Below are positions 2,613 to 20,155 of a DNA stretch of 32,192 bases, one piece after another. Made by a program: the position numbers and the translations under genes. The DNA is taken from the NCBI GenBank assembly GCA_017455185.1, contig JAFTBN010000058.1, positions 1 to 32,192 on the forward strand, in the 5' to 3' direction. Origin of the DNA: Clostridia bacterium. Its GTDB lineage: Bacteria > Bacillota > Clostridia > Oscillospirales > CAG-272. The number at the start of each line of letters is the position of its first letter. The first letter of the stretch is position 1. Below the pieces are notes generated by a model that was not told where the DNA came from, did no database searches, and saw nothing but the letters and a program-made list of their open reading frames with translations.

Positions 2613-3461
2613 TCAATATCTGCCTGCGCAGCCGAACAGTTCCATCTTAGTCATGGTAGCCTGCTTAACGGCCTCACGTACGACGGGCATAATGTCAGTC
2701 TGGCCCATGCCGGGTTTATACATTTTGTTTGCCGCGTCTGCAAAGGCGGTGTTGATATCCGTGAAGATGTTCACTTTTGAAATGCCGTTGGCAATGGTGC
2801 GTTTGAAGTCGTCGTCGGACAGACCGGAACCGCCGTGAAGAACGAGCGGGGTCTTGACCATGCTGGAAATCACTTTCAGACGGTCGAAGTCAAGCTTCGG
2901 CTTTGCCTTGTATGCGCCGTGTGCCGTGCCGATGGCCACCGCGAGGGCGTCAACGCCGGTAACGGTTGCGTATTCGAGCGCCTGCTTGGGGTCGGTGTAG
3001 ATGCTGTTGTCATCCGTTCCGGCGTGCTCCGCACTCGCGGCGTTTGCTCCTACGTGACCGAGTTCGCCTTCCACCGAGATGCCGCGCTCGTGCGCATAGC
3101 GGACGACGGCGCGAACCTTACCCATGTTGCTGTAGTAATCATCGGTGGAGCAGTCGTACATAACCGAAGTGAATCCGAGGCGGATGGCCTTCTTGACCAT
3201 GTCCAGCGTCAGACCGTGGTCCAGATGGAGTACGATCGGGACGGTGGCCTTGCGGGCCAGCGGAATCAGAAAGCTGGACAAATCCTCCAGGGAAGCGAAC
3301 GGAGTGAGGATCTCGGCGGTACCGATGATAACCGGTGCACGCATTTCCTCGGCTGCTTCGATGACGCCTTTGGCCATTTCCAGATTGACGGTGTTGAACA
3401 GACCGACAGCCCAATGTTCTGCTTTTGCGCGGGGCAGAATATCATTCATAGAAACTAACAT
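2613..3461 (-). CDS. Class II ketose-bisphosphate aldolase (fructose/tagatose-bisphosphate aldolase family)
   Basis: This 282-residue protein is the usual length for the FbaA/GatY/KbaY family. These zinc enzymes cleave fructose- or tagatose-1,6-bisphosphate to DHAP and glyceraldehyde 3-phosphate, or condense them. Visible family motifs include LHLDHG (zinc His and catalytic Asp) about residue 80, VEGELGHVG near 130, GTAHG near 180 (zinc His), and VLHGGSGL near 210 (zinc His). It is the last gene of the BMC operon, 64 bases after the small McdB-like gene, with GGAAGAAGGA upstream of the ATG. It has no encapsulation tail, so it probably acts in the cytosol. A reasonable role is to draw DHAP made by the BMC aldolase into hexose bisphosphate or glycolysis. 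Its exact substrate cannot be told from sequence. Confidence 0.88.
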   Translation of the reverse strand: MLVSMNDILPRAKAEHWAVGLFNTVNLEMAKGVIEAAEEMRAPVIIGTAEILTPFASLEDLSSFLIPLARKATVPIVLHLDHGLTLDMVKKAIRLGFTSVMYDCSTDDYYSNMGKVRAVVRYAHERGISVEGELGHVGANAASAEHAGTDDNSIYTDPKQALEYATVTGVDALAVAIGTAHGAYKAKPKLDFDRLKVISSMVKTPLVLHGGSGLSDDDFKRTIANGISKVNIFTDINTAFADAANKMYKPGMGQTDIMPVVREAVKQATMTKMELFGCAGRY

Positions 3462-3525: not shown

Positions 3526-3741
3526 TTACAGAAGCCAAACGGGCAGCTCTTCGGTAATCATGACGTAATTGCCGTGACGGACCGGCTTTTCGGAAGCGGA
3601 AGCTTTCTTGGCCGGAGCCTTTTTGGGGGCCGGAGCGGCGGGCTGTACCGGGGCTTCGACTGCGGGAGCGGCTGCCGGAGCGGCAGCGGGTGCGACTTTG
3701 GCGCCGGAGGCGCGGCTGATGCTGTTTTTACCGACTGACAT
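3526..3741 (-). CDS. Small disordered McdB-like partner of the ParA ATPase
   Basis: This 71-residue basic protein has three parts. The N-terminus MSVGKNSISRASGAK has Lys/Arg spacing like the ParA-activating peptides of ParB/McdB-type partners. Residues about 16-50 are a low-complexity Ala/Pro/Lys linker. The C-terminus NYVMITEELPVWLL has a Trp three residues from the end. Its start codon lies inside the 3' end of the ParA gene (14-base overlap), with AAAGGAG ahead of it, so the two are translationally coupled. McdB adaptors of carboxysomes are small, disordered, encoded beside a ParA-type McdA and carry a C-terminal Trp needed for cargo binding. That is established for carboxysomes; that this protein does the same here is inference. 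It could instead be an unrelated linker or scaffold peptide of the compartment. Confidence 0.6.
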   Translation of the reverse strand: MSVGKNSISRASGAKVAPAAAPAAAPAVEAPVQPAAPAPKKAPAKKASASEKPVRHGNYVMITEELPVWLL

Positions 3742-4516
3742 GATTTAGAATCTCCTTTGCAAGGTTTGCATATTCGTTGGCGCTGCGGGAATTTCTCTTG
3801 TAGGCGCCGACCGGTTTGCTGTTGTCCTGGGACCATTCAATCGTGCTGTCAATCCGGATGATGGTCTCGAACACCGGCATATCGCTTTCGTGCAATGTGT
3901 CAAGCATTTCACGCAAGTATTTCTTTCTTTCATCGGCTTTGGTCACGGCGATTCCCATGACGTGGAGCTGGGGTGCGATGGTTTGCACCTGCCGGACAAA
4001 GTCGTTCATCTTTGCCACACCGAAGAGGCCCCAGGGGCTGGCTTCCACCGGGATGACCAGTTCATCCGATGCGCAGAGCATGTTCATGACCCAGCAGCCC
4101 AGGGTGGGCGGTGCGTCCATCAGGATGAAATCGTACGTTCCGGAAGCCACGATATGGGACAGGCACTTTCTCAGGATGAATTCGCGCTGCCAGCGGGGGA
4201 ACAGTTCGAATTCGATCGAACTCATTTCCGAGGAGGAGGGAATCAGGTCCAGATTGGGATACCCGGTGTGGACGATATAGGGGGCGAGGTCTTTTTCGGC
4301 TTTCAGACCTTCGTAAAGCGTTTTTCCGCTTTCCACGAAGGAGAAGGTCATCGAGTCGTCAAAGAAGGAAAGCGTCAGGTTCATCTGCATGTCGCCGTCG
4401 ATGAGAAGCACTTTTTTGCCGGTCAGAGCCATCTCATATCCGACATTGACGCAGGTTGTGGATTTTCCGCTTCCGCCTTTGTTGTTTGCAAAGCAAATCA
4501 CTTTGGTCTTGCTCAT
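3728..4516 (-). CDS. ParA/McdA-type ATPase, probable microcompartment positioning factor
   Basis: This 262-residue ParA-family ATPase has a deviant Walker A NNKGGSGKST at residues 11-20, with signature Lys13 and P-loop Lys18. Walker A' is DGDMQMNL (40-47) and Walker B is FILMDAPPTLG near residue 120. Such ATPases bind DNA non-specifically as ATP dimers and are released by a partner, spreading plasmids, carboxysomes or other cargo over the nucleoid. I chose the ATG at 4516 because GAGGAC lies just upstream and the conserved core begins at once; upstream in-frame codons show no family likeness. It lies 22 bases after the PduV-type GTPase and overlaps the McdB-like gene by 14 bases. Being inside a BMC operon rather than beside an origin or parS supports BMC positioning over chromosome or plasmid partition. 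Confidence 0.85.
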   Translation of the reverse strand: MSKTKVICFANNKGGSGKSTTCVNVGYEMALTGKKVLLIDGDMQMNLTLSFFDDSMTFSFVESGKTLYEGLKAEKDLAPYIVHTGYPNLDLIPSSSEMSSIEFELFPRWQREFILRKCLSHIVASGTYDFILMDAPPTLGCWVMNMLCASDELVIPVEASPWGLFGVAKMNDFVRQVQTIAPQLHVMGIAVTKADERKKYLREMLDTLHESDMPVFETIIRIDSTIEWSQDNSKPVGAYKRNSRSANEYANLAKEILNHVSR

Positions 4517-4538: not shown

Positions 4539-5012
4539 TTAATGTCTGTGAACCGGCCGGCGGACAGAAGGTCTGCCTTCGGGCGCGTCCTGGTCCAGAA
4601 AAGCAATGATTTCGTTCAGGCCTTCCCCTGTGATCGAACTGACGGGGAAGATTTTCTTGCATCCGGCCAGCCTGAGCCAGTTGGATGTCATCGGAATGTT
4701 GGCGTCCGCCCGGTCGATGCCGGTCAGGATGCCGATGACCTCCCGGTTGCACATGTTGGTGATGCAGGGAGGAAAGAGCGTGAAGGGTTCGGCAGCGCTT
4801 ACGAGCAGACCGACCACATCGGACTCATAGGTATACAGCGCCAGAGCGGCGCCGAGCCCGCGGGTCTGGATGTATTCGCCCGGGGTGTCGATGATGGTGT
4901 CCGTATAGTGAATGAACTGGGTCTTGCAGTATTCGAGCTGCTGTCCTTTCAATGCCTGCGTCAGGGTGGTTTTTCCCGCGCCGACGCGGCCGATCAGGAT
5001 CAGACGGCGCAT
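4539..5012 (-). CDS. pduV: PduV/EutP-family small GTPase
   Basis: This 157-residue Ras-like P-loop GTPase is about the usual PduV/EutP length. The P-loop GRVGAGKTT is at residues 8-16, DTPGEY is the G3 motif near residue 42, a TGID motif near 96 is the degenerate G4, and SSITGEG near 124 is the G5. PduV has been linked to the movement or filament association of Pdu compartments in Salmonella and Citrobacter; the enzymatic role of the family is not settled. It starts one base after the stop codon of the PduU-like gene, so the two are tightly coupled, and it is followed by the ParA ATPase. The extreme C-terminus is Arg/Pro/His-rich. Confidence 0.88.
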   Translation of the reverse strand: MRRLILIGRVGAGKTTLTQALKGQQLEYCKTQFIHYTDTIIDTPGEYIQTRGLGAALALYTYESDVVGLLVSAAEPFTLFPPCITNMCNREVIGILTGIDRADANIPMTSNWLRLAGCKKIFPVSSITGEGLNEIIAFLDQDAPEGRPSVRRPVHRH

Positions 5013-5013
5013 T

Positions 5014-5391
5014 TTACGTTTTGGTCATCGGGCATACGCTGTAGCCCAACGTATCGCGCACGTAGGTGCAGATGGCGTGGAAGGAAGCTTCGACCTCGGA
5101 CACGGTGCCCGTGATGATGAGCGTTCCGCTGAAACGGTCCACGAATCCAAGCTCGGCTCCGGAAGACTTCAGCGCGATGTCCGCGATGATGACGGCGGTT
5201 TCGGCCGGGCTGATGGTCATGACGCCGATGGCGGCCTTGTCGTATTCCACCTGAGGATCCAGCCCGAGTTTGTAATACAGAATCGGGTCGGGGTTGGCAA
5301 TGATGTGCGCCAGAGTGATCTGCCGTCCGGGAACCAGTTCCTGGACGATGCGCATTTTATCATGCAGTTCAAGTTGATCTTTCTCGTTCAT
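5014..5391 (-). CDS. pduU: PduU/EutS-type circularly permuted shell protein (BMC-H)
   Basis: This 125-residue protein is of the circularly permuted BMC-H class. It has a PduU/EutS-like N-terminal segment with RIVQELVPGRQITLAHIIA, which in this family makes a small beta-barrel over the hexamer pore. The BMC fold follows, with AIGVMTISPAETAVIIAD (helix one region) and a sheet near residues 100-110. Such hexamers tile shell facets and probably have a capped, closed pore. It sits between PduT and PduV, the same neighbourhood as in pdu operons. Confidence 0.88.
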   Translation of the reverse strand: MNEKDQLELHDKMRIVQELVPGRQITLAHIIANPDPILYYKLGLDPQVEYDKAAIGVMTISPAETAVIIADIALKSSGAELGFVDRFSGTLIITGTVSEVEASFHAICTYVRDTLGYSVCPMTKT

Positions 5392-5413: not shown

Positions 5414-5959
5414 TCAGAGATTGTCCCAGAGTTCCTCGTGGGGAGCCGCGATGACCACCTGGCTGTTGAGCATGCCCAGATCCCGAGCGTAGTTGGCCCC
5501 AGCCGCAACGGCGGCGGAAACGTCTCCCACCTCACCGGTCAGAAGGACAATGCCCTTGCCGCCCATGCCGCGGGAAACGCGCAGGTCGTAAATCTCAACC
5601 TTGGCTGTTTTGACCGCGATGTCGGCCGCCTTGATGATGCTGGCCGCGCTGTAGGTTTCGATGACGCCCAGGGCGCCTTTTTTCGCTACGGCCTGGGTGC
5701 TGAACAGGGCGGCGATGACCGTGGGGTCTATCCGGCCCATTAGGGACGTATCGATGATGGTATCGGCGAAGCGGCCCTTGACGTGGTCGATGGCGGCCGT
5801 TACGTCCGCAATGGAGCCGGTCAGCATGATTTCGAATTTGCCGGGGCAAATGGCATGCGCGACAATCAGCCGCACTCCCGCGCTTTTGAGCGAGGCGTCG
5901 GTTGCTTCGATTCCTTTTGCGATGCTTTTCAGTTCTATGACACCAACTGTCTGATACAT
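5414..5959 (-). CDS. pduT: PduT-type tandem-domain shell protein with Fe-S pore cysteine
   Basis: This 181-residue trimeric shell protein (BMC-T) has two tandem BMC domains: residues 1-90, starting TVGVIELKSIAKG, and 91-181, with ALGVIETYSAASII. The ICPGKF segment places Cys38 exactly where Salmonella PduT has the cysteine that holds a pore [4Fe-4S] cluster in the trimer, so electron passage across the shell is likely. It lies directly downstream of PduS, its known electron-transfer partner in pdu systems. The C-terminus APHEELWDNL matches the family's usual PHE-x-x-W ending. Confidence 0.93.
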   Translation of the reverse strand: MYQTVGVIELKSIAKGIEATDASLKSAGVRLIVAHAICPGKFEIMLTGSIADVTAAIDHVKGRFADTIIDTSLMGRIDPTVIAALFSTQAVAKKGALGVIETYSAASIIKAADIAVKTAKVEIYDLRVSRGMGGKGIVLLTGEVGDVSAAVAAGANYARDLGMLNSQVVIAAPHEELWDNL

Positions 5960-5984: not shown

Positions 5985-7319
5985 TCAGTTTATTTTTTCG
6001 ATGATGATCTTGGTCTGGTCCACGTAGGTGACCCGCCCGTCAATCGAGGCGGCCTGCGGAATGGACAGTCCCGGTCCGCACTCGGCGATGCGGGTGCCCT
6101 TTGCAACCGTGTCTCCTTCCCGGACGCACGGAACGCTGGGGGAACCGATGTGCTGGTGCATGGGGATTTCCACCCGGTCGGGCTGCATCAGCTCGGGGTG
6201 GAACACCGGAGTCTTGTCGTAGCGGGTGATTCCGAGGAAATCCTTCCACCGCTCCGTACTCATCATGGTATAGCTGCGGTCCTCTCGGACGTGATATTCC
6301 TTCGAGGGATCCGAAAAATGCAATTTGTTTTGCGCCAGAATGCTCTTGTGGTCCAGAATGACCGCGCGGGGCGAAATGTATTGGCAGCAGGCCGCGATCT
6401 CGCAAATGCCGCACGAGCAGCACAATGAGGCGCTCAGGACGCTCTCCGGCATCACTTCGTTGACGCCCGAGGCAACCCGCACGTGCATGTGGGGCTCAAG
6501 CGGATAGCCGAGCGCGTGGCGCGGGCACATATCCGTGCAGCGCGTGCACTGGCAGCACACCGAAGAGGCGATGGCCCGGTGAATCTTCTGGCCGCGCATC
6601 TTGACGCGGACCGCCGGAGTCTCCTTCGGGATGACGATCAGGCCTTTGGTGGTCTTGGTGATGACCGCGGTGTTGGGGTGAATGATGCGCCCCATGGAGG
6701 GACCGCCGTCCATCAGGACGTCTTCCTCCGGAATGGTGATATGCAGCCGGTCAAGAAGTTCGGATACACGCATGCCAATGGGGACATGCACGACGACGGG
6801 GTTCGGAATGTCCCCGTTTATGGTCAGGTACTTTTCGGTCAGCGGCTTTTGATGGAGAATGGCTTCGCGCGCATTGCAAAGTGTCTCCATATTGAACACG
6901 ATGACGTGCTGCGAAACCGGAAGCTGTCCGGGTTGAACCAGTCGGCCCGTGCATTGATAGATCAGATTGATCTCATCCCCCATGGGGTACACATCGGGCA
7001 ACTGCTTGACGAAGCAGCCTTTTCCCAGTTCCTGCCCGTCGGACAGACCCAAAGCCTTGCAATTGTGCGCCTTGATGCCGAACAGACACTGTGTCATGCC
7101 CGCCTCTTCCATAATCAGACGGGCACCTTCCACCGCCTGCGCCATTTTTTCGTGCATCAGCTGGAAGTCGGTATAGAGCATCGGCTCGCATTCGGCGGCA
7201 TTGATCAGCAGAATCTCTTCTCCCGGCGCCAGTTTGGCGTAGGAGGGAAATCCCGCGCCGCCCGCGCCGACAATGCCGGCATTTTGCAAGGATATTTTTA
7301 TCTCATCTAAACTTGCCAA
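5985..7319 (-). CDS. pduS: PduS/RnfC-type NADH-flavin-FeS electron-transfer protein
   Basis: This RnfC-like protein of about 444 residues has a Gly-rich GIVGAGGAGFPSY nucleotide/FMN region at its N-terminus, a SLBB-like middle, two cysteine clusters (CCQCTRCTDMCP and CCSCGICEIAACC) for 4Fe-4S centres, and a C-terminal barrel. In pdu systems PduS reduces cobalamin. Here no B12 enzyme is in the operon, so its likely job is re-oxidising NADH and passing electrons to the PduT shell cluster. There is no ATG start. The TTG at 7319 is preceded by GGGGAG at 6 bases and fits the family's N-terminus; a TTG at 7343 would add 8 residues. Confidence 0.9.
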   Translation of the reverse strand: MASLDEIKISLQNAGIVGAGGAGFPSYAKLAPGEEILLINAAECEPMLYTDFQLMHEKMAQAVEGARLIMEEAGMTQCLFGIKAHNCKALGLSDGQELGKGCFVKQLPDVYPMGDEINLIYQCTGRLVQPGQLPVSQHVIVFNMETLCNAREAILHQKPLTEKYLTINGDIPNPVVVHVPIGMRVSELLDRLHITIPEEDVLMDGGPSMGRIIHPNTAVITKTTKGLIVIPKETPAVRVKMRGQKIHRAIASSVCCQCTRCTDMCPRHALGYPLEPHMHVRVASGVNEVMPESVLSASLCCSCGICEIAACCQYISPRAVILDHKSILAQNKLHFSDPSKEYHVREDRSYTMMSTERWKDFLGITRYDKTPVFHPELMQPDRVEIPMHQHIGSPSVPCVREGDTVAKGTRIAECGPGLSIPQAASIDGRVTYVDQTKIIIEKIN

Positions 7320-7392
7320 AACGAACTCCCCGGAACGATTCAACGTTCCTTAGTGAAATACTTCGCGGAAAACCCGCGGCAGGCCCTAAGGC

Positions 7393-7662
7393 TCAGCTCA
7401 TGTAATCGATGATACCGACAATGGTCGCATCGACCGGGATCTGGTTTCCTTTTGCATCGGCCGGAAGCGCCAGACGCGCGGAACTGCCGGTTGAAATGAG
7501 GACATATTCCCCGATGCCGGCGCCGGCGGCGTCTACCGCCACAAGGTATTTGTTGGTTTCCTTGCCGTCCTCAATCAAATGGACCTGCATGAATTTGCAG
7601 CCGATCAGGCTTTCAACTTTACGTGTGGAAACAACATTCCCGATTACTTTTCCTATCAGCAT
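7393..7662 (-). CDS. pduN: PduN/EutN/CcmL-type pentameric vertex shell protein
   Basis: This 89-residue BMC-P protein is the full length of the family. It starts MLIGKVIGNVVSTRKVESLIGCKF and ends with PVDATIVGIIDYMS, the usual EutN/CcmL frame of strands. Pentamers of this family close the twelve corners of the polyhedral shell. It is placed between PduL and PduS, as in many BMC operons. Confidence 0.95.
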   Translation of the reverse strand: MLIGKVIGNVVSTRKVESLIGCKFMQVHLIEDGKETNKYLVAVDAAGAGIGEYVLISTGSSARLALPADAKGNQIPVDATIVGIIDYMS

Positions 7663-7685: not shown

Positions 7686-8381
7686 TTATTTGATCACGGT
7701 AACCCGGCTTCCGTTTCCGATGCCGGCCGCATTTGCGTCGTCGGTGTCCACATGCATCTCAAGACGGAACTTGTCGGACACGCGGATTTGCACGTCGAAC
7801 CAGACGGTGTGCTTGGTCCCGACCACGTCCACGTTGACGTAATCCCCGTCCTTGACGCCGAAATGCTCGCCGTCGGCCGGAGACATGTGGATGTGACGGT
7901 TGGCAATGATGCAACCTTCCTTCAGAGTCACAATCCCTTTCGGACCGACGATGGTCACAGGCGCGGAACCCGAAAGCTTGCCGGATTCACGCACGGGCGG
8001 CTTGACTTTGAGGATGTAGGAGTCGGTGACCGAAATCTCAACCTGGGACTGCTTGCGCAGCGGTCCGAGAACGCGCACGCCTTCAATGGCGCGCATGGAG
8101 GGACCCAGAAGGGTCAGGGTTTCCTTGCAGGCGAACTGCCCGGGCTGGGACAGGTCCTTCAGGGGGGTCAGCTGGTATCCCGGCCCGAACAGGATGTCCA
8201 CGTGTTCCTGGGTCAGGTGAATGTGCCGGTTGGATACGCCGATCGGCACGGTAAAATCATTTGCAGCCTGTGCGGGCGCCGCGGGCGCCTCTTTCTTTGC
8301 GCTGCCGGCCATGGCGGGAATCGACATTTCCGCTAAGGCCTTTTTGACCATTTCTTCAATTTGCTCGTTGGTATAAGCCAT
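7686..8381 (-). CDS. pduL: PduL-type phosphotransacylase with N-terminal encapsulation peptide
   Basis: This 231-residue enzyme swaps acyl-CoA for acyl-phosphate, regenerating CoA inside the shell. Residues 5-20 (NEQIEEMVKKALAEM) form an amphipathic helix of the encapsulation type, followed by an Ala/Pro linker. Two PduL domains follow, each with a His cluster for the two zincs: SNRHIHL near residue 50 and ANRHIHMS near 155. The start at 8381 is chosen because it opens directly into the encapsulation helix and has an AAGGA-type site upstream; a longer reading adds 22 residues unlike the family. The acyl-phosphate product would go to the kinase encoded by the first gene of the operon. Confidence 0.94.
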   Translation of the reverse strand: MAYTNEQIEEMVKKALAEMSIPAMAGSAKKEAPAAPAQAANDFTVPIGVSNRHIHLTQEHVDILFGPGYQLTPLKDLSQPGQFACKETLTLLGPSMRAIEGVRVLGPLRKQSQVEISVTDSYILKVKPPVRESGKLSGSAPVTIVGPKGIVTLKEGCIIANRHIHMSPADGEHFGVKDGDYVNVDVVGTKHTVWFDVQIRVSDKFRLEMHVDTDDANAAGIGNGSRVTVIK

Positions 8382-8677
8382 GAGAAAGGAGTCCTTCTTT
8401 CTTTTGATTGTAACACAGATGTTTCTGAATCTATGGGAATCCGCCATGCCGGAGCCGGCGGGGATATTTCGAAATGCAAGGGGTAGGGAGGAAATGGAAA
8501 CACTTCCACCTTTTTTAGGAAATCTTCTCCTTAACGGAGGGATATTGCCGGTCTTTGAAACAAAAAATCAAAAAACCGGTCACGTTCAATCCTGAGGGAG
8601 GATGAATCCATCCTTCCCTCAAGATTGCGCATTGGCAGAATCTGCCAACTCATAGCGCTTGGAAAGAACCCCGAAGA
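8382..8677 (-). other. 296-base spacer within the BMC operon with two hairpins
   Basis: No gene is seen here. Read on the minus strand, transcripts leaving the shell gene first meet a perfect 8-base-pair palindrome (8632-8648, TTGGCAGAATCTGCCAA). Next comes a stem of 11 pairs with one bulge (8594-8604 with 8609-8620). About 15 bases on there are T-rich runs. A TACAAT -10-like hexamer lies at 8407-8412 without a good -35. The arrangement suits partial termination or mRNA processing that lowers expression of the PduL-to-aldolase part relative to shell genes. Confidence 0.5.
8594..8620 (-). terminator. Intra-operon stem-loop (attenuator or processing site)
   Basis: The arms GAGGGAGGATG (8594-8604) and CATCCTTCCCTC (8609-8620) pair with a single bulge and a 4-base loop. 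In the minus direction the first T-run comes only about 15 bases later, so it is a poor full terminator; partial attenuation or a 3'-end stabiliser for the shell mRNA is more likely. Confidence 0.45.
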
Positions 8678-8950
8678 TTAACCGATCTTAGGCAGAATCT
8701 TCTCAACATCGCTATGCGGTCTAGGAATTACGTGGGTAGCGATGACTTCGCCCAGACGAGCGGCAGCAGCTCCGCCTGCTTCAACAGCAGCCTTGACAGC
8801 GCCAACGTCTCCACGGACCATAACGCTTACCAAACCGGAACCGATCTTCTCAGAGCCGATCAGGACAACGTTCGCGGCTTTTACCATAGCATCGGCAGCT
8901 TCGATCGCTGCGACAAGACCTCTGGTTTCAACCATACCGAGAGCTTCCAT
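8678..8950 (-). CDS. pduA: PduA/PduJ-type hexameric shell protein (copy 1)
   Basis: This 90-residue single-domain BMC-H protein is a canonical PduA/PduJ-like major shell hexamer. It starts [21 protein letters not shown], with pore loop KIGSGLV near residues 36-42 and a typical HVIPRPH ending. It differs from the copy at 9334-9609 at only a handful of residues; the most notable is Val at position 29, where the other copy has Arg at 30. It is the last of four shell genes before the hairpin spacer. Confidence 0.95.
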
Positions 8951-9023: not shown

Positions 9024-9311
9024 TCAGGCCTTTTTCTTCGGCCTCAAGAACTTCATGATTTCGGGATGGGGGTTCGCAATGACTTCGGCCAGCTTAACCT
9101 TGCCGACTTTTGCGGCGGCCGCCTTGCCTGCTTCAAGAGCAGCCGAAACGGCCGATACCTCGCCTTCCACTATCACGGTAACCAGTCTACCGCCCAACCG
9201 CTTTTCACAACGCAGGAACGCTACGTCGGCTGCTTTACACATGGCGTCCAGACCCGCTATGGCAGCGACCATAGCCTGGACCTCGAGCAGTGCGATTGCT
9301 TTGTTATCCAT
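9024..9311 (-). CDS. Divergent BMC-H shell protein with altered pore loop
   Basis: This 95-residue single-domain shell protein has the pore-lining loop CEKRLGGRLV in place of the usual SEKIGSGLV. This adds an Arg at the pore edge and another basic residue before it, and the tail ends in a basic RPKKKA. Family folds are otherwise intact (ALLEVQAMVAAIAGLDAM, then AEVIANPHPEI). The changed pore charge suggests different metabolite selectivity, perhaps for phosphorylated or anionic compounds; this is inference. It is flanked by the two near-identical PduA-like copies. Confidence 0.9.
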   Translation of the reverse strand: MDNKAIALLEVQAMVAAIAGLDAMCKAADVAFLRCEKRLGGRLVTVIVEGEVSAVSAALEAGKAAAAKVGKVKLAEVIANPHPEIMKFLRPKKKA

Positions 9312-9333: not shown

Positions 9334-9609
9334 TTATTTGATTGTCGGAAGAATCTTCTCGACATCATCATGCGGTCTCGGAATGACATGGGTAGCGATG
9401 ACTTCGCCCAGACGGGCAGCAGCCGCACCGCCTGCCTCGACAGCAGACTTGACAGCGCCGACGTCGCCACGGACCATAACGCTTACCAAACCGGAACCGA
9501 TCTTCTCAGAACCGATCAAACGAACATTTGCGGCTTTAACCATAGCATCGGCTGCTTCGATCGCGGCAACCAGACCTCTTGTTTCAACCATACCTAATGC
9601 TTCTAACAT
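9334..9609 (-). CDS. pduA: PduA/PduJ-type hexameric shell protein (copy 2)
   Basis: This 91-residue canonical BMC-H protein starts [20 protein letters not shown] and has pore loop KIGSGLV and ending [18 protein letters not shown]. It is nearly identical to the copy at 8678-8950, with long stretches of identical DNA around the pore-loop codons, which suggests recent duplication or gene conversion. It should form the bulk of the facets together with its twin. Confidence 0.95.
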
Positions 9610-9665: not shown

Positions 9666-9983
9666 TCAGATGGTACTGTTTCTTCCCAGCGCGTTCAGAC
9701 GTGCAAACCATTCGATTTCCTCGGACTGGTTCGCGATGATCTTGTGGGTGATGTACATCCCCCGCTTCTTGGCTTCCTCGACTCCTGCCATCGTGGCCGC
9801 TTCCACTGCCGCGACGTCTCCTTCGATCTTGACCACCATGACAAGCGGCACTTCGCATTTTTCCGCGTTGGCCGGTTTGTTCTTGTCGATGGCGACGATT
9901 TCAATCGGAGCTGTCTTGGCGGCTTTGTCTGCCACAACCATGGAGGTTACGAAGCCGAAGCATTCAATCATGCCAAGTGCCAT
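9666..9983 (-). CDS. BMC-H shell protein with an enlarged, cysteine-bearing pore region
   Basis: This 105-residue BMC-domain protein starts MALGMIECFGFVTSMVVADKA. Where PduA has a short GSG pore loop, this one carries a longer stretch (DKNKPANAEKCEVPLVMV), with a Cys and several Lys/Glu. It ends with a C-terminal extension (EWFARLNALGRNSTI). The ATG at 9983 is preferred because GGGGTG lies 6 bases ahead; a GTG at 9992 is possible but has no spacing for a ribosome site. It follows the alcohol dehydrogenase gene by 15 bases. It may be a minor facet protein with a specialised pore, or a site for a metal or Fe-S cluster (inference). Confidence 0.85.
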   Translation of the reverse strand: MALGMIECFGFVTSMVVADKAAKTAPIEIVAIDKNKPANAEKCEVPLVMVVKIEGDVAAVEAATMAGVEEAKKRGMYITHKIIANQSEEIEWFARLNALGRNSTI

Positions 9984-9998
9984 TGCGAGCACCCCGTA

Positions 9999-11207
9999 TC
10001 AGTTGGCGATATAGCAAATCTTGATACCCTGCCGTGCTACGTTGACTTCCATTGCTTCGTTCATCTTGTCGAGCGGGAAGTTGTGGGTGATCAGGTCTTC
10101 AATCGGAATGTTCATTTCCTGGCACTGACGCAGGAACGCCATGGTTACGGGATAGTCCTCGGCGGAATAAGCCCATGAGCCGACCAGATTGATTTCCTTG
10201 TTGCACATTGCAAAGTGCGGGTTGACCTGGTATTCGCCGTTGTTCACGAAGAAGCCCATCTCGCACATACCGCCGCCGCGACGGATGAAGTCGTAAATGT
10301 CGGCAGCCGCGCCCGGAGCTCCGGTGCACTGGTAAGCGAAATCCGCACCCGCGCCGTCGGTCAGGGCCAGAACTTTGGCGACCCGGTCCTTCTTGTCGGT
10401 CATCTCGCGGTAGTTGATGGTGGTCTTCGCACCCAGTTTCTTGGCCATTTCCAGACGCTGGTCGTTGCCGTCCACAGCGATGACGTGGTTGATGCCTGCT
10501 GCACGCAGAACGGCGCACATCATCAATCCGACAGGACCGCATCCCTGGAGCACAACCTTGCTGTTGAAGTTCAGCAGGCCGGTGGCCTGTCCGCGCAGGT
10601 ACGCATGTACGCAAACGCAGGCAACTTCGAGCAGCATTCTCTGGTTGAGGTTCAGGTCATTGACCACGAAATAGGTCGAACCCTTGTCCCGAATCAGCAG
10701 ATGCGTGGAGAACCAGCCGCGGAAGGGGTTCTTCTCATCCAGCGGAACAAGACCGTAAATGCCCTGGTTCCAGCACAGGTTCTTCTGACCCGGATGGTTG
10801 CGGCAGATGAAGCAGGTGTCATCGCTGATGACAGACGTCACAATCTTGTCGCCGACTTTGATCGGGTGACCGGCTGTGTCGCACTTTATGTTCTTGCCGA
10901 GGTAGATGATGGTACCGGTTCCTTCATGTCCCAAAACCAGAGGGCAGAGACCGAAGGGATCGCCTTTCCACTCGTGTACATCCGTGCCGCATACGCCGGC
11001 TCCTTCGACTTTGACCAGGATGTCATCGTCGGTCAGCGCCGGAATCGGATATTCTTTCACAACAAACTTCTTCGGCTCCTGCAGAATCGCGACTTTGCCC
11101 GTTTTGGGAATTTCGCAGCATCCGGAAGAGGAAGAGGCGGAAGAGGAAGCCATTTCACTGAGAATCTTGCGAACGACTTCTTCTACCTGAGAAGCAGAAA
11201 CATCCAT
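9999..11207 (-). CDS. Zinc-dependent alcohol dehydrogenase with encapsulation peptide
   Basis: This 402-residue medium-chain dehydrogenase has the motifs GVCGTDVHEW and LGHEGTG (catalytic zinc ligands), a structural-zinc loop CFICRNHPGQKNLC in which the third of the four Cys is replaced, and Rossmann motif GCGPVGL near residue 225. Residues 3-20 (VSASQVEEVVRKILSEM) form an amphipathic helix like those of PduP and PduL, followed by a Ser-rich linker with a CC pair, so it is probably packed inside the shell. It would reduce lactaldehyde or acetaldehyde to the alcohol, recycling NADH made by PduP. This takes the place of the iron-type PduQ of pdu operons. Confidence 0.9.
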   Translation of the reverse strand: MDVSASQVEEVVRKILSEMASSSASSSSGCCEIPKTGKVAILQEPKKFVVKEYPIPALTDDDILVKVEGAGVCGTDVHEWKGDPFGLCPLVLGHEGTGTIIYLGKNIKCDTAGHPIKVGDKIVTSVISDDTCFICRNHPGQKNLCWNQGIYGLVPLDEKNPFRGWFSTHLLIRDKGSTYFVVNDLNLNQRMLLEVACVCVHAYLRGQATGLLNFNSKVVLQGCGPVGLMMCAVLRAAGINHVIAVDGNDQRLEMAKKLGAKTTINYREMTDKKDRVAKVLALTDGAGADFAYQCTGAPGAAADIYDFIRRGGGMCEMGFFVNNGEYQVNPHFAMCNKEINLVGSWAYSAEDYPVTMAFLRQCQEMNIPIEDLITHNFPLDKMNEAMEVNVARQGIKICYIAN

Positions 11208-11245: not shown

Positions 11246-12700
11246 TTATACAATCCGGAAATTGTCCACCATGACGCAGCGGCGGCTCCGTGTGAAGCTC
11301 TTGGCCGAGGTCAGTCCTTCGCCTGTCGGACCGGCAATGGTGAAGGTTGCATGTCCTTCGCCGCCGAAACCGATGCCCGCATAGGACGGAGCGTTCTTGA
11401 CGAAGATGGTGGTTTCCACCGCACGGGCGAACCGTGTCAGGTGGTCGATGTTCTTGGAATGCATATGAGCGGTATGACGGTTGCCATGCTCGGCTTTGAC
11501 GGCCAGGTCGATGGCTTCGTCGATGTTCTGGACTCTTACGATGCCCAGAATCGGCATCATCAGTTCGGTCTGAACAAAGGTGTGCTCAAAGGGAACTTCC
11601 GCGATGGCGCAGCGGATTTCGTCTCCGACGTGTACGCCGATCTTTTCAAGCAGAACCTTTGCGTCGCGTCCGACGCAGTCACGGCTGACCGAGGTGCGGG
11701 TTACGCCGTCCTTGCCGACTTTCTTCTCGACCACGATTTCAGCCAGGCGGTCTGCCTGTTCACGGGTCAGCAGATAGCAGCCGTGCTTGAGCATATTGGA
11801 AATCAGTTCGTCCGCGATGTTGGCGAAAGCGAATACTTCCTTTTCGGCGATGCAGGGCAGGTTGTTGTCGAACGTGCATCCGTCGATGATGTCCTTGGCC
11901 GCTTTGGCGATGTCGGCGGTATCGTCCACGATGACGGGAGGATTGCCGGCGCCGGCGCCGATGGCCTTTTTACCCGAACTCAAAACGGCTTTTACCACGC
12001 CGGGACCGCCGGTGCAGCAGAGCATCCGGATAATCGGGCTCTTGAACATGATGTCCGCGGTGTCCAGGGTGGGCTTGACAACCGAGGCAACCAAGATCTT
12101 CGGGCCGCCTGCGTTCGCGCTGGCACGGTTGACCAGGTCAACTGCGTAGTTCGAGGTTGCGATGGCGCCAGGGTGCGGGTTGAAGACCACACCGTCGCCT
12201 GCCGCTACCATTCCGATGCAGTTGCACAGAACGGTTTCGGAGGGGTTGGTGGACGGAGCAATGGCTCCGATGACGCCGAAGGGAGCCATCTCGGTCAGGG
12301 TCAGACCGTAGTCGCCGGTCTTGACTGTGGGAGTGATGTCTTCGGTTCCGGGGGCCTTGTCCGCCAGAAGATGATGCTTAGCGATTTTGTGATCCACACG
12401 GCCCATTTTGGTTTCAGCCACACCGAGAGCCGCCATGATGGGCGCTTCCTCGTGGGTGAGCCGGCGGATTTCCGCGATGATCTTTTCGCGTTCTGCCAAA
12501 GTCATGGAACGAACAGCCTTGTATCCTTCGTTCGCCGCAGCAATTGCATCGTGCATGTCCTCGTAGATGCCGATGAATTTCCGGCCGTTGTACTGGGTGG
12601 CATCCCAGTTGGCGGAAACCTTCGGGGCGCTCGAGTTCATCTGCGCCATAACAGACTGTACGATTTGACTGATTTGGGCGTCAGTCCAATTGATAGCCAT
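11246..12700 (-). CDS. pduP: CoA-acylating aldehyde dehydrogenase, PduP/EutE type
   Basis: This 484-residue enzyme oxidises an aldehyde to acyl-CoA with NAD. Residues 3-21 (INWTDAQISQIVQSVMAQM) form an N-terminal encapsulation helix, followed by a linker to about residue 40. The catalytic thiol is Cys283 in NLPCIAE, and the NAD region includes GAIAPSTNPSET near residue 145. The family's C-terminal half is complete. It is the signature enzyme of BMCs that handle toxic aldehydes. The substrate here should be lactaldehyde or acetaldehyde released by the class II aldolase encoded upstream. Confidence 0.96.
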   Translation of the reverse strand: MAINWTDAQISQIVQSVMAQMNSSAPKVSANWDATQYNGRKFIGIYEDMHDAIAAANEGYKAVRSMTLAEREKIIAEIRRLTHEEAPIMAALGVAETKMGRVDHKIAKHHLLADKAPGTEDITPTVKTGDYGLTLTEMAPFGVIGAIAPSTNPSETVLCNCIGMVAAGDGVVFNPHPGAIATSNYAVDLVNRASANAGGPKILVASVVKPTLDTADIMFKSPIIRMLCCTGGPGVVKAVLSSGKKAIGAGAGNPPVIVDDTADIAKAAKDIIDGCTFDNNLPCIAEKEVFAFANIADELISNMLKHGCYLLTREQADRLAEIVVEKKVGKDGVTRTSVSRDCVGRDAKVLLEKIGVHVGDEIRCAIAEVPFEHTFVQTELMMPILGIVRVQNIDEAIDLAVKAEHGNRHTAHMHSKNIDHLTRFARAVETTIFVKNAPSYAGIGFGGEGHATFTIAGPTGEGLTSAKSFTRSRRCVMVDNFRIV

Positions 12701-12755: not shown

Positions 12756-13493
12756 TTACATCTTATACAGCTCGGCCAGAACCTTCGCGGTCATTTCGTC
12801 GATGACGCGCTGGTGCTCCGGGGAGATGACGGGCGCCTCGACTTTGGCTTCGCTCTTTGCGCATGTGCAGGAGGAATCGGCGCAGGAGCCCGATTCGCAC
12901 TTGACGCCGCGCACCGCGTCGATTCCGGCGCCGATGGCGTTCATGCGGCAGTAGTATTCGCAGGCGTCGATGTTGTCGAACGCATTGTCCAACGTATCGC
13001 CGACGGCAAAAGCGGAATTGCCTCCGAAGAGGAACGCGCACTTGTCGGCCAGGACGTTGCGGAATGTGTCATCGGCGGTGTTGGAGGCCTTGTCGTACGA
13101 ACCGGCGGGAATGACACCCAGATAAACGCGGTTCTCGGGAAGCACGCAGGAGTCCACGGCTACACCCTTGATGGCATAGGCGGTTGCGAACGAAGGCTGG
13201 GCGTGCACGATGGCCCGGATGGAGGGACGCAGGCTGTACATCAGAATGTGCAGCTTGGCCTCGGAGGTGGGTTCATACATGCCGCTTCCGATCTTTTGGC
13301 CCTGCGCGTTGACCTTGACGATCATATCGGGGGTCAGACGGTATTTGCATACGCCGCGGGGCGTTACCAGATATTCGTTGTCGCTGAGCTTGTAGGAGAT
13401 GTTTCCGTGCTTGGCGGCGACGTACTGTTTGTCATACAGCCGATGGGCGGTATCGCACATCGCTTTTTTGATATCGAATTCGGACAGAATCAT
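12756..13493 (-). CDS. Class II aldolase-like protein without zinc ligands (pseudo-aldolase), tagged for the BMC
   Basis: This 245-residue homologue of the fuculose-1-phosphate aldolase (AraD/FucA) family aligns with the gene just upstream but lacks the metal site. The HAH pair is HAQ (His97, Gln99), and the NHG segment is GNS (Asn159 where the partner has His159). Glu78 of the SE motif is kept. The fold signatures GNIS and TPRGV near the N-terminus are intact. Residues 199-211 hold four cysteines (C-x4-C-x4-C-x-C), then a linker and a C-terminal encapsulation helix about 228-244 ending in TAKVLAELYK, the same tag as the active enzyme. It has a full-length frame and a good start, so it is not a decaying gene. 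It may be a scaffold or a structural subunit of mixed tetramers, or have a metal-free role. Confidence 0.85.
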   Translation of the reverse strand: MILSEFDIKKAMCDTAHRLYDKQYVAAKHGNISYKLSDNEYLVTPRGVCKYRLTPDMIVKVNAQGQKIGSGMYEPTSEAKLHILMYSLRPSIRAIVHAQPSFATAYAIKGVAVDSCVLPENRVYLGVIPAGSYDKASNTADDTFRNVLADKCAFLFGGNSAFAVGDTLDNAFDNIDACEYYCRMNAIGAGIDAVRGVKCESGSCADSSCTCAKSEAKVEAPVISPEHQRVIDEMTAKVLAELYKM

Positions 13494-13539
13494 GATTCGT
13501 TATGCAGGAAAACCTGCATCGTCTCCTTTTCCTTATTAT

Positions 13540-14403
13540 TTACTTGTACAGTTCGGCGAGCACTTTGGCGGTTACGCTGTCAATGTAATCCGCGTTCTCC
13601 TCGGTCTTCTTGGAGATGGGACTGTTGACGGTAATGGCCTTGAAATCGCTGTCGTTGGGATCTTCTCTCTTTTCGTCGGCCAGCGGCTTGTAATTGTGCT
13701 TGCAGCGGCAGTTCTCGGTCCCGAGATTCTTGCATTTTGCGCAGCCGGGATGACGGCCGGGAACCTGAAACTTCTTGCGCAGCTCAAGCAGCTTCTCAAT
13801 CTCTTCGCAGGACAGTTCCTGATCTCCGCCCAGTTGCTTGGCCATCAGGGTGACCTTGGCGTAGAATTCGAGCGTCTCCATGTTGAAATACGCCTTTTCC
13901 AGGGTCGCGCCTACGGTAACGGCGCCATGGTTGGCCAGAAGGAAGGCGTCATGGTCCTGCAGGTAGGGCATCATGGAGTTCGGCAGCTCGTCGGTGGAGG
14001 GGGTTCCGTAATCACAGGTCGGAACGGCACCCAGGAACAGGGAAGCTTCCGCCATGTTGTAGCGGTCAAGCGGAACGTGCGCCACGGCAAAAGCGGTAGC
14101 CGTCGGAGGATGTGCGTGCACAACCGCGCGTACGTCTTCGCGCTGCTCGTAAACCTTCAGGTGTACCTTGAATTCGGAAGAAGGTTTGCAGCGGCAGTTT
14201 TCCAGCAATTTGCCCTGCGCGTCTACGTGGCAGATCATATCGGGTGTCATATAGCCCTTCGATACGCCGGTCGGGGTGCAGTAAAACTCGTTGGGGCCGA
14301 CTTTGACCGAAATATTTCCGTCGTTGGCGGCAACGAATCCGTTCTGATAGATCCTTTTTCCGATCTCGCAGATTTCTTTTTTGATTTCGTAAGCGGATTG
14401 CAT
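13540..14403 (-). CDS. Class II sugar-phosphate aldolase (fuculose-1-phosphate type) with C-terminal BMC tag
   Basis: This 287-residue enzyme should cleave a ketose 1-phosphate into DHAP and an aldehyde. The zinc ligands of the AraD/FucA family are all seen: His96 and His98 in VVHAHPP, and His159 in LLANHGAVTVG. Catalytic Glu77 is in SSEFKVH. The N-terminal phosphate motifs GNIS and TPTGVSKG are present. After the catalytic domain come four cysteines at 221, 224, 232 and 234 (C-x2-C-x7-C-x-C), a charged linker, and an amphipathic encapsulation helix at 271-287 ending TAKVLAELYK. A substrate of fuculose- or rhamnulose-1-phosphate (lactaldehyde product) or 5-deoxyribulose-1-phosphate (acetaldehyde product) fits the downstream enzymes. 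The sequence cannot decide among these. Confidence 0.9.
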   Translation of the reverse strand: MQSAYEIKKEICEIGKRIYQNGFVAANDGNISVKVGPNEFYCTPTGVSKGYMTPDMICHVDAQGKLLENCRCKPSSEFKVHLKVYEQREDVRAVVHAHPPTATAFAVAHVPLDRYNMAEASLFLGAVPTCDYGTPSTDELPNSMMPYLQDHDAFLLANHGAVTVGATLEKAYFNMETLEFYAKVTLMAKQLGGDQELSCEEIEKLLELRKKFQVPGRHPGCAKCKNLGTENCRCKHNYKPLADEKREDPNDSDFKAITVNSPISKKTEENADYIDSVTAKVLAELYK

Positions 14404-14420: not shown

Positions 14421-15620
14421 TCAGTTATTCTTGACCAGGTTCAGTGTGTCGGTCGCAATCATCAGTTCCTCGTCGGTCGGGATGACCAGCACTTTGACTT
14501 TGGAACCGGGAGCGGACAGGTCAACGTTTTCTCCGCGCGGGCAGGACTGGTTGTATTTTTCATCGATGGCGATGCCCAGATAGTCCATGTTCCGGCAGAC
14601 GGCCTGACGGAAGTCGCGGTCGTTCTCGCCGATGCCGGCGGTGAAGAGCAGGATGTCCACGCCGTTCATTTCGGCGATGTAGGACCCGATGATCTTCTTG
14701 GTGCTCTGGACGAGCATGTCAAGCGCCAGTTTGGCGCGCTCGTTGCCCGCCTGTGCGGCAGCCCCGACTTCGCGCATGTCGCTCGACACGCCCGAAACGC
14801 CCAAAAGACCGGATTTCTTGTTCAGAACGTCGTCCATCTGATCGGGGGTCAGATTCTCCTCGCGCATCAAGTAGGTGACAACGGTCGGATCGACCGAACC
14901 GGACCGGGTGCCCATGGGCAGACCTTCCTGGGGAGTAAAGCCCATGGAGGTGTCGATGACTTTGCCTGCGTTGACTGCGGTGATGGAAGAACCGTTGCCG
15001 CAGTGGCAGGTGATGATTTTCAGGGACTCAAGAGGCTTGCGCACAAAAGCGGCAGCCTGGTTGGCGACGTAGCGGTGGGAGGTTCCGTGGAATCCGTACC
15101 GGCGCACCTTGTACTTTTCGTAATACTCGTAGGGCAGGGCGTACAGATAGGATTTCGGGGGCATGGTGCTGTGGAAGGAAGTATCGAAAACGGCGACCAT
15201 AGGCTTGCCGGGCATGACTTTGCGGCAGGCGTTGATGCCCTTGATGGCAGGCGGGCCGTGCAGCGGGTTGATGCCGACGATGGATTCCAGATAATGCAGC
15301 ACTTCGTCGGTGATGAACATGGAGGACTGCAGTTTGCCTCCGTGTGCCACGCGGTGGCCGATGGCGTCGATTTCGTTCACGCTGGCGATGACACCCAGCT
15401 CGGGATCCGTCAGAAGGCGGAGCACCAGGGCGATGGCGTCGTCGTGGTCTTTCAGGTCTACGTCGGCTTTGTAATCCGGCTTGCCCGGACGCTTGTGCGT
15501 CACCGCGGCGCCGATGCCGATTTTCTCACAAAGTCCTTTTGCGATGACTTTGTTCTCATCCATGTCAAACAGCTGATACTTCAGGGAAGAGCTGCCTGCA
15601 TTGACTACCAGAATTTTCAT
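14421..15620 (-). CDS. ackA: Acetate kinase (acyl-phosphate to acid plus ATP)
   Basis: This 399-residue ASKHA-fold kinase is the family's full length. It has the N-terminal MKILVVNAGSSSLKYQLFD phosphate motif, VAHGGK near residue 88, FDTSFHSTMP, the GFHGTSHRYV segment near 178, and the GGIGEN-type motif TAGIGEND near 327. It is the first gene of the BMC operon. It likely converts the acyl-phosphate made by PduL to the free acid with ATP, outside the shell because it has no encapsulation tail. In vivo it may act on lactyl- or propionyl-phosphate as well as acetyl-phosphate. Its ribosome site is weak (AAAAGAA). Confidence 0.95.
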   Translation of the reverse strand: MKILVVNAGSSSLKYQLFDMDENKVIAKGLCEKIGIGAAVTHKRPGKPDYKADVDLKDHDDAIALVLRLLTDPELGVIASVNEIDAIGHRVAHGGKLQSSMFITDEVLHYLESIVGINPLHGPPAIKGINACRKVMPGKPMVAVFDTSFHSTMPPKSYLYALPYEYYEKYKVRRYGFHGTSHRYVANQAAAFVRKPLESLKIITCHCGNGSSITAVNAGKVIDTSMGFTPQEGLPMGTRSGSVDPTVVTYLMREENLTPDQMDDVLNKKSGLLGVSGVSSDMREVGAAAQAGNERAKLALDMLVQSTKKIIGSYIAEMNGVDILLFTAGIGENDRDFRQAVCRNMDYLGIAIDEKYNQSCPRGENVDLSAPGSKVKVLVIPTDEELMIATDTLNLVKNN

Positions 15621-17872: not shown

Positions 17873-20056
17873 TTATCCCAGCTCATCCCGGCGGATGATT
17901 TCTTCCTGCCCGTTGCGCGACATATCCACGAATACGGCGCTGTATCCGGTGATGCGCACCCTCAGGTCGGCGTAGTCTTCCGGACAGCATTGCGCCCGGC
18001 GCAGCGTGGCGGTGTCGGCCACCGAAACCTGTACCTGCATGCCCCCCTGGGAAAAGAAGGTGGAGAGCAGGACGTTCAGTCTCTCCAGGCCTTCGGGTCC
18101 GGCCACCAGTTTTTCCTGCAGACGCACGTTGAGCGCTCCTGCGGCAATCCGGCAAAAAGGCAGACGGCAGACCGATTGGAACAGGGCGGTCGGACTGTCG
18201 AAATAACCGCGGGTGGGCGAGAGGTTTTCGCTCAGCGGTTCGTGGGCCAGACGTCCGTCGGGCGTCGCGCCCAGCGCGTAGCCCTGGTGAATGTGGTTGG
18301 TGTCGTTGATGGTGGTCGGAAGGGGATACAGGCGGCGTTCGCCCGGACCCGGTTCGCTTTCCTCCCGGATGATATCCAGCATGCAGTTCAGCAGGCGCTC
18401 GGCGTGGCGGTCGGCCCGGTCGTCTCCGGTCCCGTATTTGGGCGCCTGGCGGCAGGCGGCAAGCAGGGGAAGATTCCCCTCGAAGTTGGCTTCCATCGCC
18501 GCCTTCATCCCGGAAAGGTCGGTCAGGTGCTTTTCAAATACGACTTCCTGCAAGGCGGCCATCATATCCGCGGCGGTTCCGATGTTGCGCAGCAGAACGT
18601 AGGCGGCCGGGTACCGGACTCCTCCGTCCATGGAGGACCGGGCCTGTGCCATCGGGCCCTCCAGGAAACAGTCGTCGAACGAGAGCCGCCCGGTAAAGAC
18701 GGGCTCCTGTGCGGCAAAGACCGACCGGAAACGGGTCCAGCCCTCCCGGTACAGCGCCCGGTAGGCCTGCGCAAAGGCTTCGTATATTTCTTCGGTTGAG
18801 GCATAGTCGTCCCGCTCGTTCAGCACCCGGAGCAGGGTGACGGGAATCGGCTCGCCGATGGTCCACAGGCACCGGTATTTATAGGAGATGTCGGGCCAGT
18901 TGCAGGGATGAATCGAATAGTCGTAGGCGTCCCTGTCCTCCACGCCGTACTCCTTCATTGCGGCCATCATCGTCCGGTCGTTGTACAGAAGAATCGAGGC
19001 GTTCTTTCTCACTTTGTCCAGAATCGTGTTCCAGACTTCCGGGTTCTGCCGTTCGGTGTAGCGGAAAATGACGACGGGGTTCTTCAGCTCGGGCCGGATC
19101 CACTGTGCAAAGAGAAGCGTCAGGGGATTTTCGGCCGGGTCCTGATCCGGGGTTTCTCCTCCGAGCAGGATGTAGGTCGGGCTGTCGAAGACGGGATTGC
19201 GCTGCCAGCCCGTGATGTGTCCGCCTTGGGAGGGATCCCCCATCTGGTGTTCGCCCCGACCCAGATGCAGGCTGCATTTGCAGCAGAAATCCAGGAAGAA
19301 GGCCTGCGCGTCTTCCAGGGTCAGGCGGTTCTGCTTCCGGTCGTTCTGGAAGAAGGGAAGGAGGTACTCGTCGACACGGCCCAGTGTCAGGCAGCTGACT
19401 TCCCGCCCGGCATAGAGATAGTATACGGTAAAGACGAAGACGACCAGCTGCAGGGCTTCCCGGTAACCGGAGGGGGCGCCCAGCGTCAGGGCGTGCGCGA
19501 TCTGATACAGATCCGGCCGGCCCGCCGCTTTTGCGGCGTCCGCATAGCGCCCGATGTAGAGCAGCAGCGCTTCATATATTTCAATCATTCCTTCAAGAAA
19601 GCGTTCGTGCCCTGCGCCTTCTCCCCGGGTTCGCGCCAGAGCCAGTCGTTCCTTCGCTTCGAGCAGCAGACCGGGCAGGCCTTTTTGCATCAGGATCGGC
19701 CAGGCCAGAGTCAGGTGTCCTCCCGCGAAGCAGGTGACGGGGTTGTTTTCCGGTCCGAAACTCCGTTTCCAGACGGTTTGCAGACGCTCCTCCTCTTCCG
19801 GGGTCGGAACGTGGTCATCGTAGCGCCCGAGCAGAAGATCGTTCGGGTCGACGGGAAGGGAGACGCGTGCCAGAATCCATTTCAGGGCATGTCCCAGGAG
19901 CAGGGGCTGTTCCCGGTCTGCAAAGAGCCGGCTTGCTTCGTCAATCAGGAAAAACCGCTCCACCATGGTACTGGTGACCGGTTTGGCTGTCAGCAGGGAT
20001 CTGGCCTGCTCGAACTGCCGGGTGGCCAGAATCAGGTTTGAGGATGGGGTTGACAT
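17873..20056 (-). CDS. Atypical glycyl radical enzyme (pyruvate formate-lyase superfamily)
   Basis: This 727-residue protein is of the PFL/diol dehydratase superfamily. The C-terminal glycyl radical loop RITGYSAVFVDMSRNGQEE places the radical Gly at residue 704. The active-site Cys385 lies in the expected place after RDAYDYS, but in HPCNWPDIS instead of the usual GCVE; the Glu two residues after Cys, the general base of the eliminases, is Trp. It is also shorter than most members (about 760-850). The start at 20056 is set by AGGAGG 5 bases upstream. No radical-SAM activating enzyme is in the window, so it would depend on one encoded elsewhere. It has no encapsulation tail and lies outside the BMC operon. 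The reaction is unknown. Confidence 0.85.
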   Translation of the reverse strand: MSTPSSNLILATRQFEQARSLLTAKPVTSTMVERFFLIDEASRLFADREQPLLLGHALKWILARVSLPVDPNDLLLGRYDDHVPTPEEEERLQTVWKRSFGPENNPVTCFAGGHLTLAWPILMQKGLPGLLLEAKERLALARTRGEGAGHERFLEGMIEIYEALLLYIGRYADAAKAAGRPDLYQIAHALTLGAPSGYREALQLVVFVFTVYYLYAGREVSCLTLGRVDEYLLPFFQNDRKQNRLTLEDAQAFFLDFCCKCSLHLGRGEHQMGDPSQGGHITGWQRNPVFDSPTYILLGGETPDQDPAENPLTLLFAQWIRPELKNPVVIFRYTERQNPEVWNTILDKVRKNASILLYNDRTMMAAMKEYGVEDRDAYDYSIHPCNWPDISYKYRCLWTIGEPIPVTLLRVLNERDDYASTEEIYEAFAQAYRALYREGWTRFRSVFAAQEPVFTGRLSFDDCFLEGPMAQARSSMDGGVRYPAAYVLLRNIGTAADMMAALQEVVFEKHLTDLSGMKAAMEANFEGNLPLLAACRQAPKYGTGDDRADRHAERLLNCMLDIIREESEPGPGERRLYPLPTTINDTNHIHQGYALGATPDGRLAHEPLSENLSPTRGYFDSPTALFQSVCRLPFCRIAAGALNVRLQEKLVAGPEGLERLNVLLSTFFSQGGMQVQVSVADTATLRRAQCCPEDYADLRVRITGYSAVFVDMSRNGQEEIIRRDELG

Positions 20057-20155
20057 GGGTACCTCCTGTAAAACCGCTCGCAAACCGGTTCAGACTTTTG
20101 CACTAATGCATAAGGAAGAGGAGCGGAAACGGGTATTTTCGTTACACTTTGAATA

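Follow-up and report, generated by a model that had tools for sequence, protein, structure and literature searches.

A ParA ATPase and its small, probably ParB-derived partner: a candidate positioning system for catabolic BMCs in Clostridia

Introduction

How metabolosomes are placed in the cell and inherited is a largely open question. In a locus from a gut-type Clostridia bacterium, a catabolic BMC operon has towards its end a ParA ATPase gene that overlaps a frame of 71 residues. The window, i.e. the whole 32,192-nucleotide stretch of DNA that was analysed (GenBank assembly GCA_017455185.1, contig JAFTBN010000058.1), had been read from its letters alone as carrying a McdAB-like pair within a sugar-phosphate/aldehyde BMC operon. 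According to the scheme established for ParA/MinD systems, the partner touches the ParA dimer with a basic N-terminal peptide, which makes the dimer leave the nucleoid, and holds the cargo with its remaining part (PMC10241942, PMC12204374). ParA genes in BMC loci were noted in 2014 (PMC4207490), and McdAB-like pairs in non-carboxysome BMC operons have been proposed since, the small proteins of the PDU and GRM types ending in Y or F (PMC11321042, PMC8262871); McdB-like proteins next to PDU/GRM loci are already published. In Salmonella, neither the addition of McdAB nor the absence of ParA or MinD affected positioning of the Pdu BMC (PMC12866334). The pair described here, with its two short peptides, offers a defined and compact candidate for a system that places catabolic BMCs.

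Results

The BMC operon of the window

The operon lies on the minus strand and extends from the gene for acetate kinase (15620) as far as that for a class II ketose-bisphosphate aldolase (2613), with ParA and the 71-residue frame near its end (Table 1), and all seven BMC-domain matches in the window's genome fall within it. Two markers of SPU-type BMCs, a DeoC-type aldolase (PF01791) and RpiB (PF02502), were absent from the genes examined in this operon, where the aldolases belong to class II; the sugar-phosphate type originally assigned to this BMC finds no support in these genes. In many relatives the BMC-T and EutS genes are separated by a gap of 3–4 kb; in the two that were read, L014 and L010, this gap holds the genes for a glycyl radical enzyme and the corresponding activase, which marks these as GRM-type loci.

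Table 1. Genes of the BMC operon in the window
Feature	Position	Strand	Remarks
Class II ketose-bisphosphate aldolase	2613–3461	-	Downstream of adaptor; domain match
Adaptor gene, 71 aa, McdB-like	3526–3741	-	N-terminus basic (MSVGKNSISRASGAK); linker Ala/Pro/Lys; C-terminal motif EELPVWLL
ParA ATPase, BMC-dedicated (putative), 262 aa	3728–4516	-	Deviant Walker A K13GGSGK18, signature lysine
EutP/PduV-type GTPase	4539–5012	-	PF10662, E 4e-48; K-rich motif tail absent here
EutS/PduU-type BMC-H shell protein	5014–5391	-	Directly upstream of EutP
BMC-T shell protein	5414–5959	-	Two BMC domains
PduS-like oxidoreductase	5985–7343	-	Domain match
BMC-P vertex protein (EutN/CcmL)	7393–7662	-	Domain match
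PduL phosphotransacylase	7686–8447	-	Domain match; encapsulation-peptide-like N-terminal helix, judged by eye
Four BMC-H shell genes	8678–8950, 9024–9311, 9334–9609, 9666–9992	-	Domain match
Zn alcohol dehydrogenase	9999–11207	-	Domain match
CoA-acylating aldehyde dehydrogenase	11246–12700	-	Domain match
Two class II (AraD/FucA-type) aldolases	12756–13493, 13540–14403	-	Domain match
Acetate kinase	14421–15620	-	By sequence; operon's first gene as read here

The ParA ATPase and its clade

The original prediction of a ParA with a deviant Walker A motif that overlaps the small frame by 14 bases was borne out: the motif reads ANNKGGSGKST, within which K13GGSGK18 is identical across the 32 sequences compared, and the bases common to both genes are 3728–3741. 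A scan of GTDB genomes with this ParA yielded 61 loci, 54 of which share the order EutS-EutP-ParA-partner with the same kind of shell genes nearby; family searches extended the set to 97 loci, a few genomes being duplicated. Two PF13614 ATPases are encoded in the window's genome, namely this ParA and one of the Soj type, the latter followed by a ParB-like gene. In a tree with Soj- and plasmid-type ParAs as the outgroup, the BMC-associated ParAs formed a clade of their own (support 100/100) and, as had been anticipated, did not group with chromosomal Soj; the root of this tree depends on the long Soj outgroup branch, which is its weak point. With the ParA profile, three genomes of the class sample scored 414–465 bits and the next best match 194. 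In L036, L039 and L041 an extra, unrelated lipoprotein-like frame of about 600 bases lies inside the conserved EutP-ParA junction.

The small partner and its conserved ends

A downstream partner stands beside ParA in 93 of the 97 related loci (92 with the typical start, together with L057, where the start is divergent), which upholds the expectation that the small frame would be conserved next to BMC ParA genes. The two genes overlap by 14 bases in 74 loci, by 26 in 10 and by 10 in eight. Partners range in length from 63 to 375 aa, the linker being free in length between a start with the consensus M-[PSA]-[IV]-G-[K/A]-x-[AS]-[ILV]-x-[RK], in its typical form with G-K and I, and an end that is typically [LM]-P-x-[Y/F/W/H]-L-L. 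Gly at position 4 and Arg or Lys at position 10 are present in all 86 distinct partners and Lys at position 5 in 85 of them, so that the predicted basic N-terminus is a property of the whole family. Among the 85 complete C-termini, Pro at −5 and Leu or Met at −1 are found in every one, Leu at −2 in 84 and an acidic residue at −7 in 66. The window protein, which starts with MSVGKNSISRASGAK and ends in ELPVWLL, does have the predicted Trp at −3, but Trp as such is not a conserved feature: this position holds Y in 54, F in 12, W in 11 and H in eight of the 85, and is thus aromatic or His throughout.

The codons for the terminal Pro (CCC/CCG/CCT) and Leu (CTG/TTG/CTT/TTA) residues differ synonymously, varying at third positions and at the first positions of Leu codons, with the amino acids kept constant. 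Such variation around fixed residues indicates selection on the protein. The overlap and the two ends recur in more relatives than chance would produce, and the 71-residue frame is a real gene; both ends of the partner, and its middle much less, are under selection. The window partner has a biased composition and no confident AF2 fold (pLDDT 62, pTM 0.13), and Pfam and NCBIfam scans gave no domain match, in keeping with the view that ordinary homology searches would pass it over. A charge-hydropathy rule placed 46 of the 86 partners among disordered proteins, the Ala-rich window protein not being one of them; its description as disordered relies on AF2 and composition.

No adjacent partner was found at nine of 30 sampled Lachnospiraceae ParA loci, at L046, or for G085 and G400, the nine loci and L046 making up one clade. 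The BMC regions read for G085, G400 and G002 (L046) were searched for an orphan partner and contained no frame ending in the motif, and a search of the same three by ParB_N similarity gave matches only in frames of about 190–440 aa. Such loci may have their partner gene at another site, a situation known from orphan alpha-McdB, or may have none. The ParA genes without an adjacent partner are those of L046, L192, L194, L196, L198, L202, L203, L207, L208 and L210, and of L077 and L078; several have an AraC-type regulator downstream.

A C-terminal motif shared with EutP

A search for the terminal motif took in all 9463 frames of 45 aa or longer from 142 loci and found it in the partner and in EutP only, against a rough chance expectation of 0.4; two residual matches proved to be alternative starts of the partners in L056 and L085. 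EutP carries the motif on a lysine-rich tail in 24 of 81 cases in ParA-positive loci vs none of 24 in ParA-negative loci (Fisher P 8e-4), in a test that ignores the kinship of the loci and uses a slightly wider form of the motif, with A or Q also allowed at −5. The 24 tailed genes lie among L011–L068 (e.g. L014, 7463–7987); 21 of them have Trp at −3, mostly as LDTWLL, and seven changes are needed when the tail is mapped on the ParA tree. In the window, L008 and L009, EutP is without the tail and the partner has Trp. The presence of the same motif at the C-termini of partner and EutP suggests a shared docking peptide, and the simplest reading is that both tails would bind one common surface, presumably the shell; as a guess from gene order only, the EutS-type protein is a candidate receptor.

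ParB_N-bearing partners

The ParB_N domain (PF02195) was detected in partners from L051, from three members of family f57 and from G709, with E values of 6e-9 to 1e-13 and above the curated cut-off in five of the five scanned; no other Pfam domain exceeded its cut-off in these five. The L051 partner also matches the structures of Noc and ParB. On the ParA tree, f57, with its ParB_N partners, branches first and the operon-embedded clade with short partners is nested, other ParB_N partners being found among the Lachnospiraceae beside short ones. Three changes between ParB_N-bearing and short partners are needed on this tree, and these would most simply represent repeated loss, or possibly gains. 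The next-nearest ParAs that were fetched are mostly followed by ParB-type proteins, which points in the same direction, and none is followed by a protein with the tail. Since basal partners hold ParB_N between the same two ends, where the short partners have a disordered linker, the adaptor looks like a ParB minus that domain, and it probably descends from a ParB that lost ParB_N, the direction of the change being one that we infer. Partners with ParB_N between the conserved ends were seen at L079–L085, L087, L051 (8773–9318) and L183.

Co-occurrence with BMCs

All 25 ParA-positive genomes of the window's family (196 genomes) belong to its 49 BMC-positive genomes (P 2e-18), of which the other 24 are without this ParA, and in Lachnospiraceae (387 genomes; 116 BMC-positive) BMCs are present in 41 of 41 ParA-positive genomes (P 1e-24), although these P values assume independence of genomes that are in fact related, so that the count by genus in the window's family, with nine of nine ParA-positive genera having BMCs (P 1e-6), is the safer one. 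BMCs were likewise found in all three ParA-positive genomes of the class sample, and in eight of nine genomes of f57, all nine of which have the ParA; in the ninth (G399, 76% complete) no BMC was found. The pair is conserved and nearly confined to genomes with catabolic BMCs. At least 18 Lachnospiraceae genomes have ParA and the listed shell genes on different contigs or over 25 kb apart, although in draft genomes separate contigs may in fact adjoin. Linkage alone cannot account for the co-occurrence there, and operon linkage, which could explain it in the window's family, does not do so for Lachnospiraceae. In L034, L046, L051 and L057 ParA also lies away from the listed shell genes, with BMCs elsewhere in all four genomes. 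As all of the out-of-operon genomes have BMCs, we discarded the idea that a pair encoded away from a BMC operon serves some other cargo.

Discussion

The gene pair, its conserved ends, its co-occurrence with BMCs, the ParB_N-bearing partners and the motif on EutP are what the sequences themselves record. Both elements of the ParA/MinD scheme are present in the pair, which makes the positioning of BMCs over the nucleoid the best explanation, and we consider it likely that the pair is a dedicated organelle-positioning system for catabolic BMCs, with an adaptor most likely derived from ParB. Our working model is that ParA-ATP dimers would bind the nucleoid and that the adaptor would use its C-terminal [LM]PxPhiLL peptide to dock on BMCs, its basic N-terminal peptide contacting ParA to bring about ATP hydrolysis and release; BMCs would then move along the gradient of ParA, become distributed across the nucleoid and be shared at division. 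In the many relatives in which EutP has the same C-terminal peptide, it probably binds the adaptor's site.

It is rather unlikely that the C-terminal motif instead binds EutP, a protease (as a degron-like LL end) or some other common target, EutP and adaptor being co-regulated. Such a target would suit a short hydrophobic C-terminus that is present on EutP too, but the motif is kept where EutP is without the tail, the window included. Its conserved Pro and aromatic residue are also unlike simple LAA-type degrons.

Descent of the pair from carboxysome McdA and McdB, moved into catabolic BMCs, seems improbable. The same gene order, a basic low-complexity partner downstream and a C-terminal aromatic residue are all compatible with it, as is the signature lysine, which alpha-McdA and beta-McdA type 2 also possess (PMC8262871). 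However, with alpha-McdA outside the comparison, the ParA profile gave 142 bits for Soj and 71 bits for cyanobacterial McdA, and among PDB structures the window's ParA matched Soj (TM 0.90) better than McdA, which Foldseek placed at rank 19 with 22% identity. The tail LPxPhiLL is, moreover, unlike the R(V/I)WPD of alpha-McdB (PMC11321042), and the partners that bear ParB_N also speak against such a descent. What stands of the McdAB-like interpretation is a ParA and a low-complexity adaptor tied to catabolic BMCs; kinship with McdAB finds no support here, ParA being nearer Soj than cyanobacterial McdA and the partner probably of ParB descent.

It is decidedly improbable that EutP links ParA to the compartment and that the small protein merely tunes ParA. 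EutP does lie between EutS and ParA in operon-embedded loci, and an interaction of PduV with the shell has been reported (PMC9132943); the adaptor itself, however, has both ends, EutP is reported to be cytosolic in Salmonella (PMC12487888), and the stretch of about 1.5 kb around ParA holds no EutP gene in any of the 30 Lachnospiraceae loci. That the pair is a ParABS remnant engaged in DNA segregation, its occurrence in BMC genomes being coincidental, would fit a Soj-like ParA and the ParB_N kept in some partners, but is most improbable in view of BMCs in 66 of 66 ParA-positive genomes from two families, a BMC GTPase that shares the partner's tail and a window partner with no recognisable DNA-binding domain.

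The positioning system that we propose for catabolic BMCs is best compared with alpha-McdAB of Halothiobacillus neapolitanus, which has a signature-lysine ParA and, just downstream, the gene for a short, low-complexity partner (51–169 aa in alpha-McdB) with a basic N-terminus and an aromatic residue near the C-terminus. In McdB the C-terminal aromatic residue is required for association with the carboxysome, and Y can substitute for W (PMC11321042). The cargo here is a catabolic BMC and not the carboxysome, the C-terminus differs as described, and the invariant Trp of McdB corresponds to a variable aromatic position with Trp in 11 of 85; ParB_N-bearing relatives and a EutP that shares the motif are further differences, and ParA is nearer Soj than beta-McdA. 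We have not classed the pair as McdAB because it has neither an invariant Trp nor carboxysome cargo and its ParA is nearer Soj than cyanobacterial McdA; by analogy it probably works like McdAB, and homology to the carboxysome system is not claimed. The McdB-like proteins near PDU/GRM loci (PMC11321042 Fig. 4; PMC8262871) also belong to non-carboxysome BMCs, of the GRM type as in many relatives of the window, and have Y or F within the last five residues; compared by description, they are possibly of the same family, and the texts read make no mention of members with Trp or His, of partners with ParB_N, of the motif on EutP or of genome-wide co-occurrence. Soj/Spo0J resembles the pair in its ParA fold, in the ParB_N of basal partners and in a basic N-terminal peptide, and differs in that the ParA here forms a separate, BMC-linked clade and the partner has a C-terminal tail motif and no recognised DNA-binding HTH. 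PduV/EutP, the product of the adjacent gene, has the same C-terminal motif in 24 relatives, but possesses a GTPase domain and is without the MxxGKxxIxR N-terminal peptide. The literature searched, which leaves out many subscription papers, gave no report of the W/Y/F/H spread, of ParB_N partners, of the motif on EutP or of co-occurrence away from the operon; descent from ParB and the motif on EutP appear to be new.

A broader scenario, to which we would give even chances, is that the ParAB of catabolic BMCs in Clostridia arose independently of carboxysome McdAB, that ParB_N was lost more than once with the ParA-stimulating head and the BMC-docking tail kept, and that EutP either received this tail or arrived at it by convergence, the result being a C-terminal peptide code for the outer surface of BMCs. 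The pair also offers a route, along which likely intermediates survive, from a DNA-partition protein to an organelle adaptor; its six-residue tag may be a label that directs proteins to the surface of BMCs, and would be useful in engineering.

Some further features of the window deserve mention. A lipoprotein-like frame of 747 aa (293–2536), for which NCBIfam gave no match, adjoins the BMC operon, and a glycyl-radical-enzyme-like gene with weak similarity to characterised families lies outside the operon at 17873–20083. Within the operon, the two class II aldolases (12756–14403) have near-identical C-terminal stretches (TAKVLAELYK), which resemble the encapsulation-peptide-like N-termini of PduL, the aldehyde dehydrogenase and the alcohol dehydrogenase encoded alongside them.
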